Assembly: GCF_010993965.1 (NCBI RefSeq)
Contig: NZ_WIXM01000012.1
Span: 1 to 64,000 of the forward strand
DNA from: Gracilibacillus sp. YIM 98692
GTDB taxonomy: Bacteria; Bacillota; Bacilli; Bacillales; Amphibacillaceae
Reading direction: 5' to 3'
DNA: 64,000 bases
The notes beneath the pieces are model-generated. The model worked only from the letters and a program-made list of their open reading frames with translations. It was not told the DNA's origin and did not search any database. Shown here piece after piece: positions 36,092-63,479 of this stretch. The position numbers and the translations under genes are program-made. Position 1 is the first letter of the stretch. Every line of letters begins with the position of its first letter.

Positions 36092-36625
36092 ATGTCTAGC
36101 ATCCTTTTAATTTTTTTATTACAAATTATATTAGTACCAACATTATCTCTTCGAATTATTTTTGTTGTTAAGAATATGAGCGTATTTGCTTCTATTTTTG
36201 GATTTCTAGAAGCCTTAATTTATGTATTTGGTTTATCCATTGTCCTAAGCGGTGAGCAAAGTATTCCAGAGATGCTTGTTTATGCCTTGGGTTTTGCAGC
36301 GGGAATCTTTTTAGGAAATTACATTGAAAATAAATTGGCTTTAGGATATACAACTCTTACTGTTAACTTAATGAATATGAATACTGACCTGGTTTCAACT
36401 CTTCGGAACAATGGCTTCGGAGTAACCGTATTTGAAGGAATGGGAAAAGATAGTGTACGTTACCAGCTTCAGATTTTGACAAAAAGAAGCTTGGAAGAAA
36501 AAGTATTGCACATGATCGAAGAATATGAGCCGCATGCATTTATCATTTCATATGAACCACGTAGGTTTAAAGGGGGCTATCTATTAAAAGCGATGAAAAG
36601 AACAAAGAAAAAGAAAAGTCTATAA
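36092..36625 (+). CDS. yebE: UPF0316 membrane protein, YebE-like
   Basis: A 177-residue protein of the UPF0316/DUF2179 family. Two or three N-terminal membrane segments (with VPTLSLRIIFVVKNM) and the motif GFAAGIFLGNYIENKLALG lead into a soluble DUF2179 domain (NNGFGVTVFEGMGKDS), ending in a Lys-rich tail. Function unknown. Its TAA stop is the first TAA of the pseudoknot element that follows immediately, so that element has replaced the original 3' flank. Confidence 0.88.
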   Translation: MSSILLIFLLQIILVPTLSLRIIFVVKNMSVFASIFGFLEALIYVFGLSIVLSGEQSIPEMLVYALGFAAGIFLGNYIENKLALGYTTLTVNLMNMNTDLVSTLRNNGFGVTVFEGMGKDSVRYQLQILTKRSLEEKVLHMIEEYEPHAFIISYEPRRFKGGYLLKAMKRTKKKKSL

Positions 36626-36750
36626 AGAAAACTCGTCGATTGACAAGCCTTTGGCGAAGTCAGAGACGTAGTTGCTCTTATCTATCTTCCTAAAATGGTC
36701 TACTACGTCGAGTATTCTTCCTTGCTGACCATTTATACATTCTGATACGG
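36626..36750 (+). repeat. Pseudoknot element, copy 1
   Basis: It starts AAAGAAAACTCGTCGATTG (hairpin CTCGTC / GACAAG). Stem A is GACGTAGT (36665) with ACTACGTC (36702). Stem B is AAATGGTC (36693) with GACCATTT (36727). The arm order A-B-A-B gives an H-type pseudoknot. It ends TTCTGATACGG. It adjoins the stop codon of yebE and is in tandem with copy 2. Confidence 0.75.
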
Positions 36751-36878
36751 TAAAGAAAACTCGTCGATTGACGAGCCTTTGGCGAAGTCAGAGACGTAGT
36801 TGCGCTTATCTATCTTCCTAATCGTGGTATCTACGACGAATTTACTTCAACTGTAACACGATATAAATTCTGATCAGG
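36751..36878 (+). repeat. Pseudoknot element, copy 2
   Basis: Same start hairpin (CTCGTC / GACGAG) and stem A GACGTAG (36793) with CTACGAC (36831, one mismatch). Stem B has a wholly different sequence, ATCGTG (36821) with CACGAT (36857), and still pairs. This is good covariation evidence. The element ends TTCTGATCAGG. Confidence 0.75.
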
Positions 36879-36934
36879 AACTAAAGAACGTTTTTTTTAG
36901 ATTAACGTCACTTTAACATTCTTGTAGTTAAATT

Positions 36935-37035
36935 AACCTGCTTCCGCAGCACATGAGATCTTTTCAGTTCAATATTAGTATTCCAATCAATATGACGATC
37001 ATTTGATGACTGTCTTTTTAGCTCTTGTCCCTTTT
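36935..37035 (-). repeat. Shared 3' element, instance 8
   Basis: On the minus strand CTGTTCAAAAGGGACAAG, GCTAAAAAG, a hairpin GACAGTCAT / ATGATCGTC, and the edge GAAGCAGGTTAATTTAAC. It directly follows the gene 37042-37599. Confidence 0.55.
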
Positions 37036-42530: not shown

Positions 42531-42899
42531 ATAAAGAAGGTTACTTATTCTTCGTGTTGAAAAAAGGGACTTAAATTCCCTGTTAATGTGTTTTCAATTG
42601 ACTGACCATCACAAGGTAAGTACCATAAAGAAAACTCGTCGATTGACGAGCCTTTGGTGAAGTCAGAGACGTAGTTGCCCTTATCTATATTACTAAAATT
42701 GTCCACTACGTCAAAATTGCTTCCTTGCTGACAATTTATGCTTTCCTATACGGAAATAAAAAAGTACTTTGTCAAAATAGTACTTAAACCACCATTAAGT
42801 ACCAAAATGAATCACCACACAACCAAAAATGACACTTATAACGGTGATAAGTACCAAAATCAAGACTAGATCTAATAAACTTGGTACTTAACAGCTGAA
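42531..42899 (+). repeat. AAGTACCA repeat, copy 2, interrupted
   Basis: Same order of segments as 26876-27087 (GGTTACTTATTCTTCGTG; AAAGGGACTTAAATTCCCTG; TTTTCAATTGACTGACC; final TTGGTACTTAAC). It is split at AAGTACCA by 171 bases at 42626-42796. The right part continues as in copy 1. Confidence 0.75.
42626..42796 (+). mobile_element. Pseudoknot element copy 3, inserted with 8-bp duplication
   Basis: The element (42627-42753: start hairpin, stem A GACGTAGT 42668 / ACTACGTC 42705, stem B AAATTGTC 42696 / GACAATTT 42730) plus about 40 further bases sits between two copies of AAGTACCA at 42618-42625 and 42797-42804. The uninterrupted repeat at 26.9 kb has a single AAGTACCA at this point. This looks like a target-site duplication. 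Confidence 0.65.
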
Positions 42900-48319: not shown

Positions 48320-48447
48320 TAAAGAAAACTCGGCGATTGCGGAGCCTTTAGGTGACAGCAAAGCCGTAGTTGCCCTTATCTATCTTCCTAAAATGGTCTA
48401 CTACGTCGAGAATTCTTCCTTGCTGACCATTTATATTTTCTGATACG
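48320..48447 (+). repeat. Pseudoknot element, copy 4
   Basis: Start AAAGAAAACTCGGCGATTG, with hairpin CTCGGC / GCGGAG. Stem B AAATGGTC / GACCATTT is intact. Stem A has decayed to GCCGTAGT / ACTACGTC. It ends TTTCTGATACGG and continues into copy 5. Confidence 0.65.
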
Positions 48448-48545
48448 GTAAAGAAAAACTTGGCTTATCGCCAAATCCTAATGGCGAAAGCCTTAGTTTT
48501 ACTTATACTATCAACCTTAAACCATTTATAAATCCTGATAGTGAA
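48448..48545 (+). repeat. Divergent member of the pseudoknot family
   Basis: Same AAAGAAAA start, followed by a TTGGC / GCCAA hairpin, a CGCCA / TGGCG alternative, and ACTATCA / TGATAGT at the end. The core is shortened to about 98 bases. Confidence 0.5.
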
Positions 48546-48546
48546 A

Positions 48547-48605
48547 AAGACGATCAATCAAATGATGATCGCCTTGTTCAACACTTGCCCTTATCCAATT
48601 AAAAA
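48547..48605 (-). repeat. Shared 3' element, instance 13
   Basis: On the minus strand TTAATTGGATAAGGGCAAG, GTGTTGAACAAG, and a hairpin GCGATCATC / GATTGATCGTC with TTTTTC. It follows the stop of the gene 48617-49075. Confidence 0.55.
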
Positions 48606-61526: not shown

Positions 61527-63290
61527 ATGGCAAACTTAAAAACAGAATACCCCACACCACAATTTCAGCGAGATAGATGGGTTAATCTAAACGGTGAATG
61601 GGATTTTGCATTCGATGATAACAATATAGGAATAAAAGAAAAATGGTATAAAGACTTTCCAAAAAAGATGAAAATCAATGTACCCTTTGCCTATCAAACA
61701 GAAAATAGCGGCATACATGACCCAAGTTTTCATGATACTGTTTGGTATCGTCGTTCATTTGATATCGATACGGATTGGAAAGGGGAACATATTCTATTAC
61801 ACTTTGGAGCGGTTGATTATCATGCAGCCGTTTATGTCAATGGACAGTTGGTTAAGCAGCATGAAGGTGGTCATACACCGTTTTATGTTGATATTACAAA
61901 TTTTGTGGAAGTCACAGACAATGAGTTAGTGATTAGAGTAGAAGATCCATCTGAGGATGTGACCATTCCAAGAGGTAAACAGTATTGGCATGAAAAATCT
62001 GCATCTATTTTTTATACGAGAACAACAGGTATATGGCAAACAGTATGGCTGGAACCAGTACCTGCTACTCGAATCAAAACCATTCGTTGGACACCTGATA
62101 TTGATGAGGGTAATGTCGATTTAGAAGCAGAACTAGCTAATCTATCTTTGGTGAATCAAGCACAATTACAAGTAGATATCTATTTTAATGAGAAAAAGAT
62201 AGTTTCGGATACATTTGAAATCATGGAAGATTACTTGAAACGCAGCATCAATATTCGCAACCGTTTCACAGATAGAAGTAATATCCATGGTCCGGGTTGG
62301 TACTGGAGTCCGGAACATCCTAATCTATTTGATGTACAATTGACACTCTTGAATGATGGGCAATCGGAAGATATCGTTCATAGCTATTTCGGCATGAGAA
62401 AAGTCTCCATCGAAAACGGGAAATTCATGCTAAATAATAAAGCCTATTATCAGAAGTTAATATTAGATCAAGGATACTTTCGAGAAGGATTATTAACGGC
62501 TCCCTCCGATCAAGCTTTAAAAGAGGACATTCTTTTATCAAAGGAAATGGGGTTCAATGGTGCCAGAAAACATCAAAAAATCGAAGATCCTCGCTTTTTA
62601 TACTGGGCAGATAAACTTGGCTTTTTAGTTTGGGGTGAGATGGCCAATTGCTCAGAGTATAGTGAGGATGCAGTAAGGAGAATTAGCAAAGAATGGGCAG
62701 ATGCCGTAACTCGCGATTACAGCCATCCTAGTGTTGTTGCCTGGGTACCATTAAATGAGAGCTGGGGCATTTCTAGAGTGGCTCATGACAAGCAGCAGCA
62801 AGACCATTCCTTAGCCATGTATTATTTAACGAAATCCCTAGATCAAACGAGACCAGTCATTTCAAATGATGGATGGGAGCATACGAAATCTGATTTATGT
62901 ACGATTCATAACTATAACGACCCAAGCAAAATACAAGAGCAATATAAAGATGTGAAGACTGCTATTCAAGCAGAACCAGCCAATCGCTCTATTTATGCTA
63001 ATGGTTTTGAATATAACGGTGAGCCTATTTTAATAACGGAGTATGGCGGTATCGCATATAAAGTAGATAACACAGACGGCTGGGGGTATTCCGCTGTAGA
63101 ATCTGGCGAACAATTAATCGAAGAATATGCGAAGGTAACCAACGCAATAGCTGAATCCCCTGTCATTCACGGCTTTTGTTACACCCAACTAACAGATGTT
63201 GAACAAGAAATAAATGGTCTGTTAACGTATGACCGAAAACCAAAATGTGACCTAAAACAAATTAAAGCCATTAATGATCGAATTAAATAG
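61527..63290 (+). CDS. GH2-family glycoside hydrolase
   Basis: A 587-residue enzyme with the GH2 order: N-terminal jelly roll (RDRWVNLNGEWDFAFDD; VWYRRSFDI; HFGAVDYHAAVYVNG), an Ig-like middle and a TIM barrel from about residue 300. The acid/base Glu lies in WVPLNESWG and the nucleophile Glu in PILITEYGG. No signal peptide, so it acts inside on imported oligosaccharides. The specificity (galactosidase, glucuronidase or other) is not clear; it is shorter than LacZ. ATG follows TTGGAGG. The TAG stop runs into a pseudoknot element. Confidence 0.9.
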   Translation: MANLKTEYPTPQFQRDRWVNLNGEWDFAFDDNNIGIKEKWYKDFPKKMKINVPFAYQTENSGIHDPSFHDTVWYRRSFDIDTDWKGEHILLHFGAVDYHAAVYVNGQLVKQHEGGHTPFYVDITNFVEVTDNELVIRVEDPSEDVTIPRGKQYWHEKSASIFYTRTTGIWQTVWLEPVPATRIKTIRWTPDIDEGNVDLEAELANLSLVNQAQLQVDIYFNEKKIVSDTFEIMEDYLKRSINIRNRFTDRSNIHGPGWYWSPEHPNLFDVQLTLLNDGQSEDIVHSYFGMRKVSIENGKFMLNNKAYYQKLILDQGYFREGLLTAPSDQALKEDILLSKEMGFNGARKHQKIEDPRFLYWADKLGFLVWGEMANCSEYSEDAVRRISKEWADAVTRDYSHPSVVAWVPLNESWGISRVAHDKQQQDHSLAMYYLTKSLDQTRPVISNDGWEHTKSDLCTIHNYNDPSKIQEQYKDVKTAIQAEPANRSIYANGFEYNGEPILITEYGGIAYKVDNTDGWGYSAVESGEQLIEEYAKVTNAIAESPVIHGFCYTQLTDVEQEINGLLTYDRKPKCDLKQIKAINDRIK

Positions 63291-63410
63291 AAAACTCGTC
63301 GATTGACGAGCCTTTGGCGAAGTCAGAGACGTAGTTGCCCTTATCTATCTTCCTAAAATGGTCTACTACGTCGAGCATTCTTCCTTACTGACCATTACTT
63401 TCTGATACGG
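63287..63410 (+). repeat. Pseudoknot element, copy 6
   Basis: ATAGAAAACTCGTCGATTG start, hairpin CTCGTC / GACGAG, stem A GACGTAGT / ACTACGTC, stem B AAATGGTC / GACCATT, end TTTCTGATACGG. The stop codon of the GH2 gene is formed at the junction, as for copy 1 and yebE. Confidence 0.75.
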
Positions 63411-63426
63411 AAATAGAAGTGATAAA

Positions 63427-63458
63427 GAAGTGGTAATTAATATTGCCACTTCCTTTTT
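63427..63458 (+). terminator. Terminator of the GH2 operon
   Basis: GAAGTGGTAATT / AATATTGCCACTTC imperfect palindrome followed by CTTTTTAA. Confidence 0.75.
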
Positions 63459-63479
63459 AACCCACATCCTCACCTTTTA

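Follow-up and report, generated by a model that had tools for sequence, protein, structure and literature searches.

A short, modular and apparently mobile repeat with a conserved fold tends to lie beside intrinsic terminators in Gracilibacillus and other Bacilli

Background

The small repeat bcr1 of Bacillus has terminal inverted repeats and duplicates its target, and insertion sequences of the IS200/IS605 family recognise a short tetra- or pentanucleotide as target. A table in a study of Bacillus repeats gives the size of bcr1 as 147-167 bp (PMC2267715). Group IIC introns are described as inserting at intrinsic terminator motifs (PMC4424553), and Table 1 of Weinberg et al. 2010 lists the Bacillaceae-1 motif as an RNA of Bacillaceae (PMC2864571). 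In this study, we describe a short, non-coding DNA repeat of 127-128 nt, apparently mobile and with a folded shape that is kept from copy to copy, which was met in a stretch of 64,000 nt from Gracilibacillus sp. YIM 98692 (contig NZ_WIXM01000012.1, positions 1 to 64,000; hereafter the window) and which recalls each of these systems in some respect. Searches of open-licence papers found neither a name for the element nor its sequence words in print; with Bacillus repeat families reported earlier it was compared by description, and the element is thus only possibly new.

Results

Copies, ends and spread of the element

The repeat unit, as read from the sequence, runs from TAAAG to ATACGG and spans 128 nt (Table 1). 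A first-pass annotation of the window had described a dispersed element of about 125 bp with copies at 36626, 36751, 42627, 48320 and 63287, and all five were recovered as full copies by a covariance model, which matched 36624-36750, 36752-36878, 42627-42753, 48321-48448 and 63287-63410 (E 1.8e-33 to 7e-27). It had added a divergent copy at 48448; a related element does lie there, matched at 48450-48543, but it scored just 21.9 bits (E 0.019) and, read by eye, has neither the A3 arm nor the covarying B arms. A start hairpin and the arm order A5, B5, A3, B3, which were also part of that description, are present in the sequence. The TAA of copy 1 is the stop codon of an open reading frame at 36092-36625, whose product presumably resembles UPF0316/DUF2179 proteins, and of the 38 own-genome copies that have a left-hand frame on the + strand, 12 show the stop codon of that frame within the first four modelled bases of the element.

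The family proved larger than first stated. In the own genome it was placed at no fewer than 46 positions by blastn, where the best 40 of 115 candidates were scored, and at no fewer than 115 places at E<=0.001 by covariance model R1, which was built from 29 copies and with which the best 150 of 2000 candidates were scored, making the count a lower bound. A 5' pattern allowing up to three mismatches had 78 matches against 0 for its reversed control, and a shorter 3' pattern 45 against 7. The 115 model matches and the pattern counts are more than chance would give.

Matches to R1 were obtained in 23 of 61 genomes and, at E<=1e-6, in 13 of 299 genomes of the class, the own genome being included in both figures. 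The spread is patchy, with at least 55 matches in G052, at least 49 in G056, at least 37 in G044 and none in 38 of the 61 genomes; these counts are lower bounds, as the best candidates of each genome were scored (57 in the 61-genome scan, 11 in the 299-genome scan). A pattern scan followed by model matching named as carriers a metagenome-assembled genome (MAG) of Alkalihalobacillus macyae (3 stretches) and Salirhabdus euzebyi (1 stretch with three copies). Pattern stretches in Photobacterium and in a Lachnospiraceae MAG had no model match and were taken as chance (6 stretches in the scan overall). The element was not found in the phage and viral collections searched, and the plasmid search returned 1 record, labelled Arthrobacter citreus.

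Table 1. Element copies, flanking features and helices in the window
Feature	Positions	Strand	Basis
Full copy 1, TAAAG...ATACGG	36623-36750	+	sequence, covariance model match
Full copy 2, in tandem with copy 1; stem B of the ATCGTG type	36751-36878	+	sequence, covariance model match
Full copy, within repeat X	42626-42753	+	sequence, covariance model match
Full copy, CTCGGC subfamily, A5 arm GCCGTAGT	48320-48448	+	sequence, covariance model match
Short relative (about 95 nt), tandem to copy 48320-48448	48449-48543	+	sequence, covariance model match
Full copy	63287-63410	+	sequence, covariance model match
Repeat X piece, 3' flank of copy 42626-42753; other repeat X copies show the empty site	42754-42825	+	sequence
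A-run and hairpin beside array, terminator side of - strand	48544-48573		by eye
A-rich stretch and hairpin GAAGTGG...CCACTTC beside copy 63287-63410	63411-63459		by eye
Start hairpin H1 of copy 1, arms 36632-36637 and 36642-36647	36632-36647	+	covariation
Alternative long nested 5' hairpin of copy 1: AACT/AGTT, CGTC/GACG, UUGAC/GUCAG, GCC/GGC	36630-36673	+	folding, covariation
Stem A of copy 1, arms 36665-36672 and 36702-36709; conserved, hardly covarying	36665-36709	+	covariation
Stem B of copy 1, arms 36693-36700 and 36727-36734	36693-36734	+	covariation

Exact insertion without target duplication

Repeat X is a second dispersed repeat (...GTACTTTGTCAAAATAGTACTTAAACCACCATTAAGTACC..., with internal GTACTT words) that serves as a landing site for the element. 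Its long copies in the own genome (G000) number 17, the piece in the window and 16 further ones, and it forms the common 3' flank of loci L006, L016 and L017. Twelve of the 17 are empty, reading ...gtacca directly followed by AAATAAAAAAGTAC... with small variants and no element. Three carry a full element between the identical two bases, one of them as a relative of about 95 nt followed in tandem by an element of 127 nt, and two hold just the last 11 and 24 nt of the element at the same site. The comparison of filled with empty sites, made in this one host repeat, therefore indicates that insertion adds exactly TAAAG...ACGG (128 nt) and duplicates nothing. Across 162 flank pairs, the mean number of matching bases was 1.07 against 1.01 after shuffling, which gives no sign of target duplication. 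Orthologous empty sites were also sought for the first array of the window, where the flanks in G002, G014 and G015 failed by eye to align across the site. One repeat X copy (L162, G000:C26:8790) has acca-TAAAGAAAAAAG at the junction in place of acca-AAATAAAAAAG; an element that once stood there may have left this footprint when it was lost.

An A-run and hairpin at the 3' side

To the right of the element the bases are A-rich at positions 2-9, and the first ten bases beside the 3' end hold 6.3 A in own-genome copies and 6.1 A in other copies, against 3.7 upstream. With 19 tandem copies and 3 copies with short flanks left out, the share of copies with a hairpin scoring 7 or more at the 3' side was 63% in the own genome (86 copies) and 40% in the others (57 copies), compared with 16% for upstream flanks (142) and 12% for shuffles (715); the remaining 37% and 60% of the copies, respectively, score below 7. 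Where a right-hand reading frame of at least 70 codons was called (uncurated), it lay on the - strand beside 71 of 95 own and 41 of 59 other copies, 112 of 154 in all. Read on the - strand, the order thus tends to be gene, terminator hairpin, T-run, element, and the 3' end of the element tends to abut an A-run and hairpin, which on the opposite strand make an intrinsic terminator. With TAAAGAAAA and hairpin H1, the 5' end of the element is itself built of an A-run and a hairpin, so each insertion would set a new target in front of itself, which would explain head-to-tail arrays; those at 36623-36878 and 48320-48543 fit such an origin. Riboswitch-type matches were seen near some copies, namely TPP (L205:25-127), T-box (L234:1636-1851) and a purine match that is cut (L297:1-65).

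Covariation of stem B and competing folds of the 5' domain

Structure was examined in an alignment (A4) of 149 distinct copies, obtained from 165 model matches by removing 9 (5 for their length, 3 as duplicates and 1 for an N) and 7 further rows (L011, L053, L022, L104, L121, L122 and L138:460-580). The arms of stem B read AAATGGTC/GACCATTT in copy 36623-36750, AAATTGTC/GACAATTT in copy 42626-42753 and ATCGTG/CACGAT in copy 36751-36878. In this stem 86.4% of cells are paired, and two-sided changes occupy 237 cells against 78.3 (sd 6.3) after shuffling, a figure to be read with the reservation that related copies inflate all covariation counts and that the shuffle controls take no account of kinship. 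The covariation score of 0.525 (0.158 shuffled) was reached by 0 of 500 shuffles, and versions of the stem slid out of register scored 0.03-0.15; simply counting the pairs that change on both sides (8, with 7.3 after shuffling) is uninformative. The first-pass view that stem B keeps its pairing through compensatory change is thereby upheld.

Stem A behaves differently. Its cells are paired at 83.4% against 82.5% after shuffling, and its two-sided cells (16 against 8.2, reached by 7 of 500 shuffles), covariation score (0.151 against 0.137, reached by 8 of 500) and pairs with two-sided change (4 against 3.5, reached by 249 of 500) amount at most to a slight excess. Nor is stem A, given earlier as GACGTAGT/ACTACGTC, common to all copies in the window: in copy 48320-48448 the A5 arm has a C/T mismatch against ACTACGTC, in copy 36751-36878 about 5 bp pair and no more, and the short relative that follows the former is without A3. 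At L133 and L134 (G056) the A5 arm is GCAAGAG, unable to pair with ACTACG or ACTATG, and stem B is intact. Loops such as TTGC-CTTAT are nearly invariant in the alignment.

At the 5' end, hairpin H1 has 91.3% of cells paired over the 149 copies, with support mainly at position 13-20 (GC 52, UA 51, CG 31). RNA folding suggested in addition a long nested hairpin that uses the A5 arm; its helices have 82.6-93.6% of cells paired, and the two middle ones hold 158 two-sided cells. This long hairpin competes with stem A for A5 and is the better supported of the two. Of the 149 copies, 93 had the long hairpin as the minimum-energy fold of their first 62 nt, 40 had H1 and 16 had neither. The two hairpins are mutually exclusive, yet both are possible in many copies, which makes a two-state 5' domain a fair reading. 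From the "covarying H-type pseudoknot" of the first-pass annotation, what stands after the shuffle tests on the 149 copies is the covariation of stem B, joined now by that of the 5' domain; stem A shows a small excess at most, and its 5' arm also serves a better-covarying hairpin.

In 20 later copies from eight further genomes, complementary B arms in the expected register were seen by eye in 9 (L295, L297-L302, L313, L314), new arm sequences such as CATTTTCAAC/GTTGAAAATG being among them, and a script put the longest complementary run at the place of stem B in 8 of these 9, not in L297. Copy by copy this register check is weak, because shuffled 3' halves of the nine give runs of like length, averaging 6-9 and reaching 9-15 pairs. 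The other 11 have a different 3' half, with for example a long stem such as GGAAAGTATGAAC/GTTTATACTTTCC in G068; two G083 copies have a simple 3' hairpin without A3. The 5' domain is thus the constant part of the element and the 3' half is variable, and the pseudoknot arrangement, if real, belongs to a subfamily.

The + strand of the element may, with lesser confidence, be the RNA-like one. In favour of it are the Bacillaceae-1 matches described below, nine of nine on that strand, and position 17-40, where a U.G pair occurs in 97 rows, C-G in 17 and U-A in 10, with 17 unpaired. Departures of the G.U kind are nearly as many as those of the A.C kind in stem B (31/32) and in H1 (39/45), which does not tell the strands apart; stem A alone leans to the + strand (118/61).

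Bacillaceae-1 RNA within long forms

Long forms of the element (L097, L142, L205, L211, L226, L228, L231, L234, L064 and L096), some without part of an end, carry an insert roughly between ACTT... and the ...CTT of the 5' domain. In a scan for Bacillaceae-1 RNA (RF01690) of 11 loci around long or odd forms, 7 reached the gathering score (35 bits) and 2 fell just below it, all nine matches lying on the + strand of the element; L142 and L219 had none. The 127-nt element itself reached no Rfam gathering score, that of Bacillaceae-1 included, and at E<=10 the interval 36500-36950 gave three unrelated matches only, far below thresholds. The comparison with Rfam that had been proposed for the element places RF01690 as an inner module of some long forms.

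Bacillaceae-1 has at least 20 matches in the own genome and at least 67 in the richest genome, the best 69 candidates of each genome being scored, and is present in 43 of 61 genomes. It is a high-copy dispersed repeat also without the ends of the element (L255-L273), and by eye these ends were unrecognised in 18 of 19 Bacillaceae-1 copies from other genomes; L272 has a doubtful, diverged 5' domain of the element beside it. In the modules of L226, L228 and L234 the hairpin loops read ACAGGA(C/T)G on the opposite strand, which, we assume, may resemble a CsrA site.

Discussion

Dispersed copies with fixed ends, an exact 128-nt insertion in repeat X, an A-run and hairpin at the 3' side of the majority of own-genome copies, and covariation in stem B and the 5' domain are the observations to be accounted for. 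We consider, with a probability of roughly 0.7, that they represent a family of small non-autonomous mobile elements that have a structured single strand and are without terminal inverted repeats. A modular, terminator-side mobile repeat is a better description than a covarying H-type pseudoknot. Most likely a folded single strand, be it RNA, cDNA or single-stranded DNA, is mobilised in trans. An enzyme supplied in trans would recognise the folded element together with the A-run and hairpin of the target, and would join the ...ATACGG end to the A-run; as TAAAGAAAA and a hairpin stand at the start of the element, each insertion might remake the target, and later copies might land head to tail before earlier ones. 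The shifts of stem B sequence between subfamilies would then reflect selection on master copies for mobilisation rather than a host function at each site. Searches for RVT_1 and Y1_Tnp pointed to no mobilising enzyme, and a non-exhaustive search saw no gene-bearing parent element that shares these ends.

The element might alternatively be a SINE-like retroelement aimed at terminators, its + strand RNA being reverse transcribed from a primer that ends in the T-run. The polarity suits this proposal, since the 3' end of the element meets the T-run strand, as do the lack of target duplication and the two repeat X copies that keep the 3' end only. Of the 23 genomes with the element, moreover, 19 have an RVT_1 match, against 16 of the 38 without it. 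Group II-type reverse transcriptases are found in the own genome, G043, G044 and G057, but G056, with its many copies, has two reverse transcriptases only, nearest to the Drt4 and Drt5 models and below cut-offs, and G010, with 10 matches, has no RVT_1 match. Reverse transcriptase is therefore enriched, yet no type is common to the high-copy genomes examined, and it was set aside as the mobiliser; truncated copies, read by eye with no systematic count, show losses at the 5' as well as at the 3' end. We hold this retroelement unlikely, if with some chance of being right, and slightly less probable again its fullest version, a bacterial SINE-like element in which a small pseudoknotted or bistable RNA is mobilised in trans, the T-run end of a terminator acts as primer, long forms bear Bacillaceae-1 as cargo and the landing site is rebuilt at each insertion. 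An open frame of 1280 aa at L287:1236-5075 (G000:C14) contains a reverse-transcriptase domain that resembles the enzymes of retron St85 and Drt2 only weakly.

The covariation of stem B, the near-invariant loops and the presence of an Rfam small RNA candidate, Bacillaceae-1, in some long forms would also be expected if the copies were amplified regulatory RNA genes, a trans-acting small RNA family or a cis-regulatory RNA acting as an H-type pseudoknot; stem A hardly covaries, however, and precise insertion into repeat X and tandem arrays are properties of mobile elements, so that we give this interpretation little chance. It is improbable that the repeat derives, in the manner of a MITE, from an IS200/IS605-type element and is moved by a Y1 transposase that acts on single-stranded DNA hairpins: a hairpin near one end and the lack of both inverted repeats and target duplication agree with such an origin, but Y1_Tnp had 0 matches in the own genome (completeness 98.77, a missed gene being possible), which holds the at least 115 copies, and none in G002 and G010, and an A-run with a hairpin forms the conserved flank rather than a short tetra- or pentanucleotide. 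More improbable by far is a DDE-type MITE of the bcr1 kind, to which the locus was earlier to be compared, for in spite of the similar size the ends TAAAGAAAACTC and CTGATACGG are not inverted repeats and the 162 flank pairs reveal no target duplication, so that both of these features of bcr1 are absent here.

Preferring the non-autonomous mobile family, we see what had looked like an isolated pseudoknot become a group of mobile repeats that in Bacilli lie at the side of terminators; their ends are defined, an empty site is known and the insertion rule can be tested. Some occurrences of Bacillaceae-1 RNA fall within an element that is modular and mobile, and this may be one reason why that RNA is dispersed. 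The first-pass annotation had spoken of selection on RNA structure; selection on structure is plausible, in an element without a gene of its own, and may act on RNA or on folded single-stranded DNA.

As to known systems, bcr1, Bant-1, Bhal-1 and Bhal-2 of Bacillus are intergenic, dispersed and foldable like the element (PMC2267715); for the Bhal and Bant families the likeness is one of description, not of sequence, and kinship or even identity is possible. The BOX and RUP repeats of pneumococcus are likewise small interspersed repeats, compared here by description and not by sequence (PMC3049150). Bacillaceae-1 RNA is dispersed too and forms the inner module of some long forms on the same strand, although the 127-nt element fails its model. 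Group IIC introns differ in that the 128-nt element contains no Rfam group II ribozyme match and no intron-encoded reverse transcriptase, being too small for such a protein, and in that its RNA-like strand is apparently the opposite one; like these introns, as they are described in PMC4424553, the element inserts just past the T-run of a terminator, as a tendency and not in every copy.
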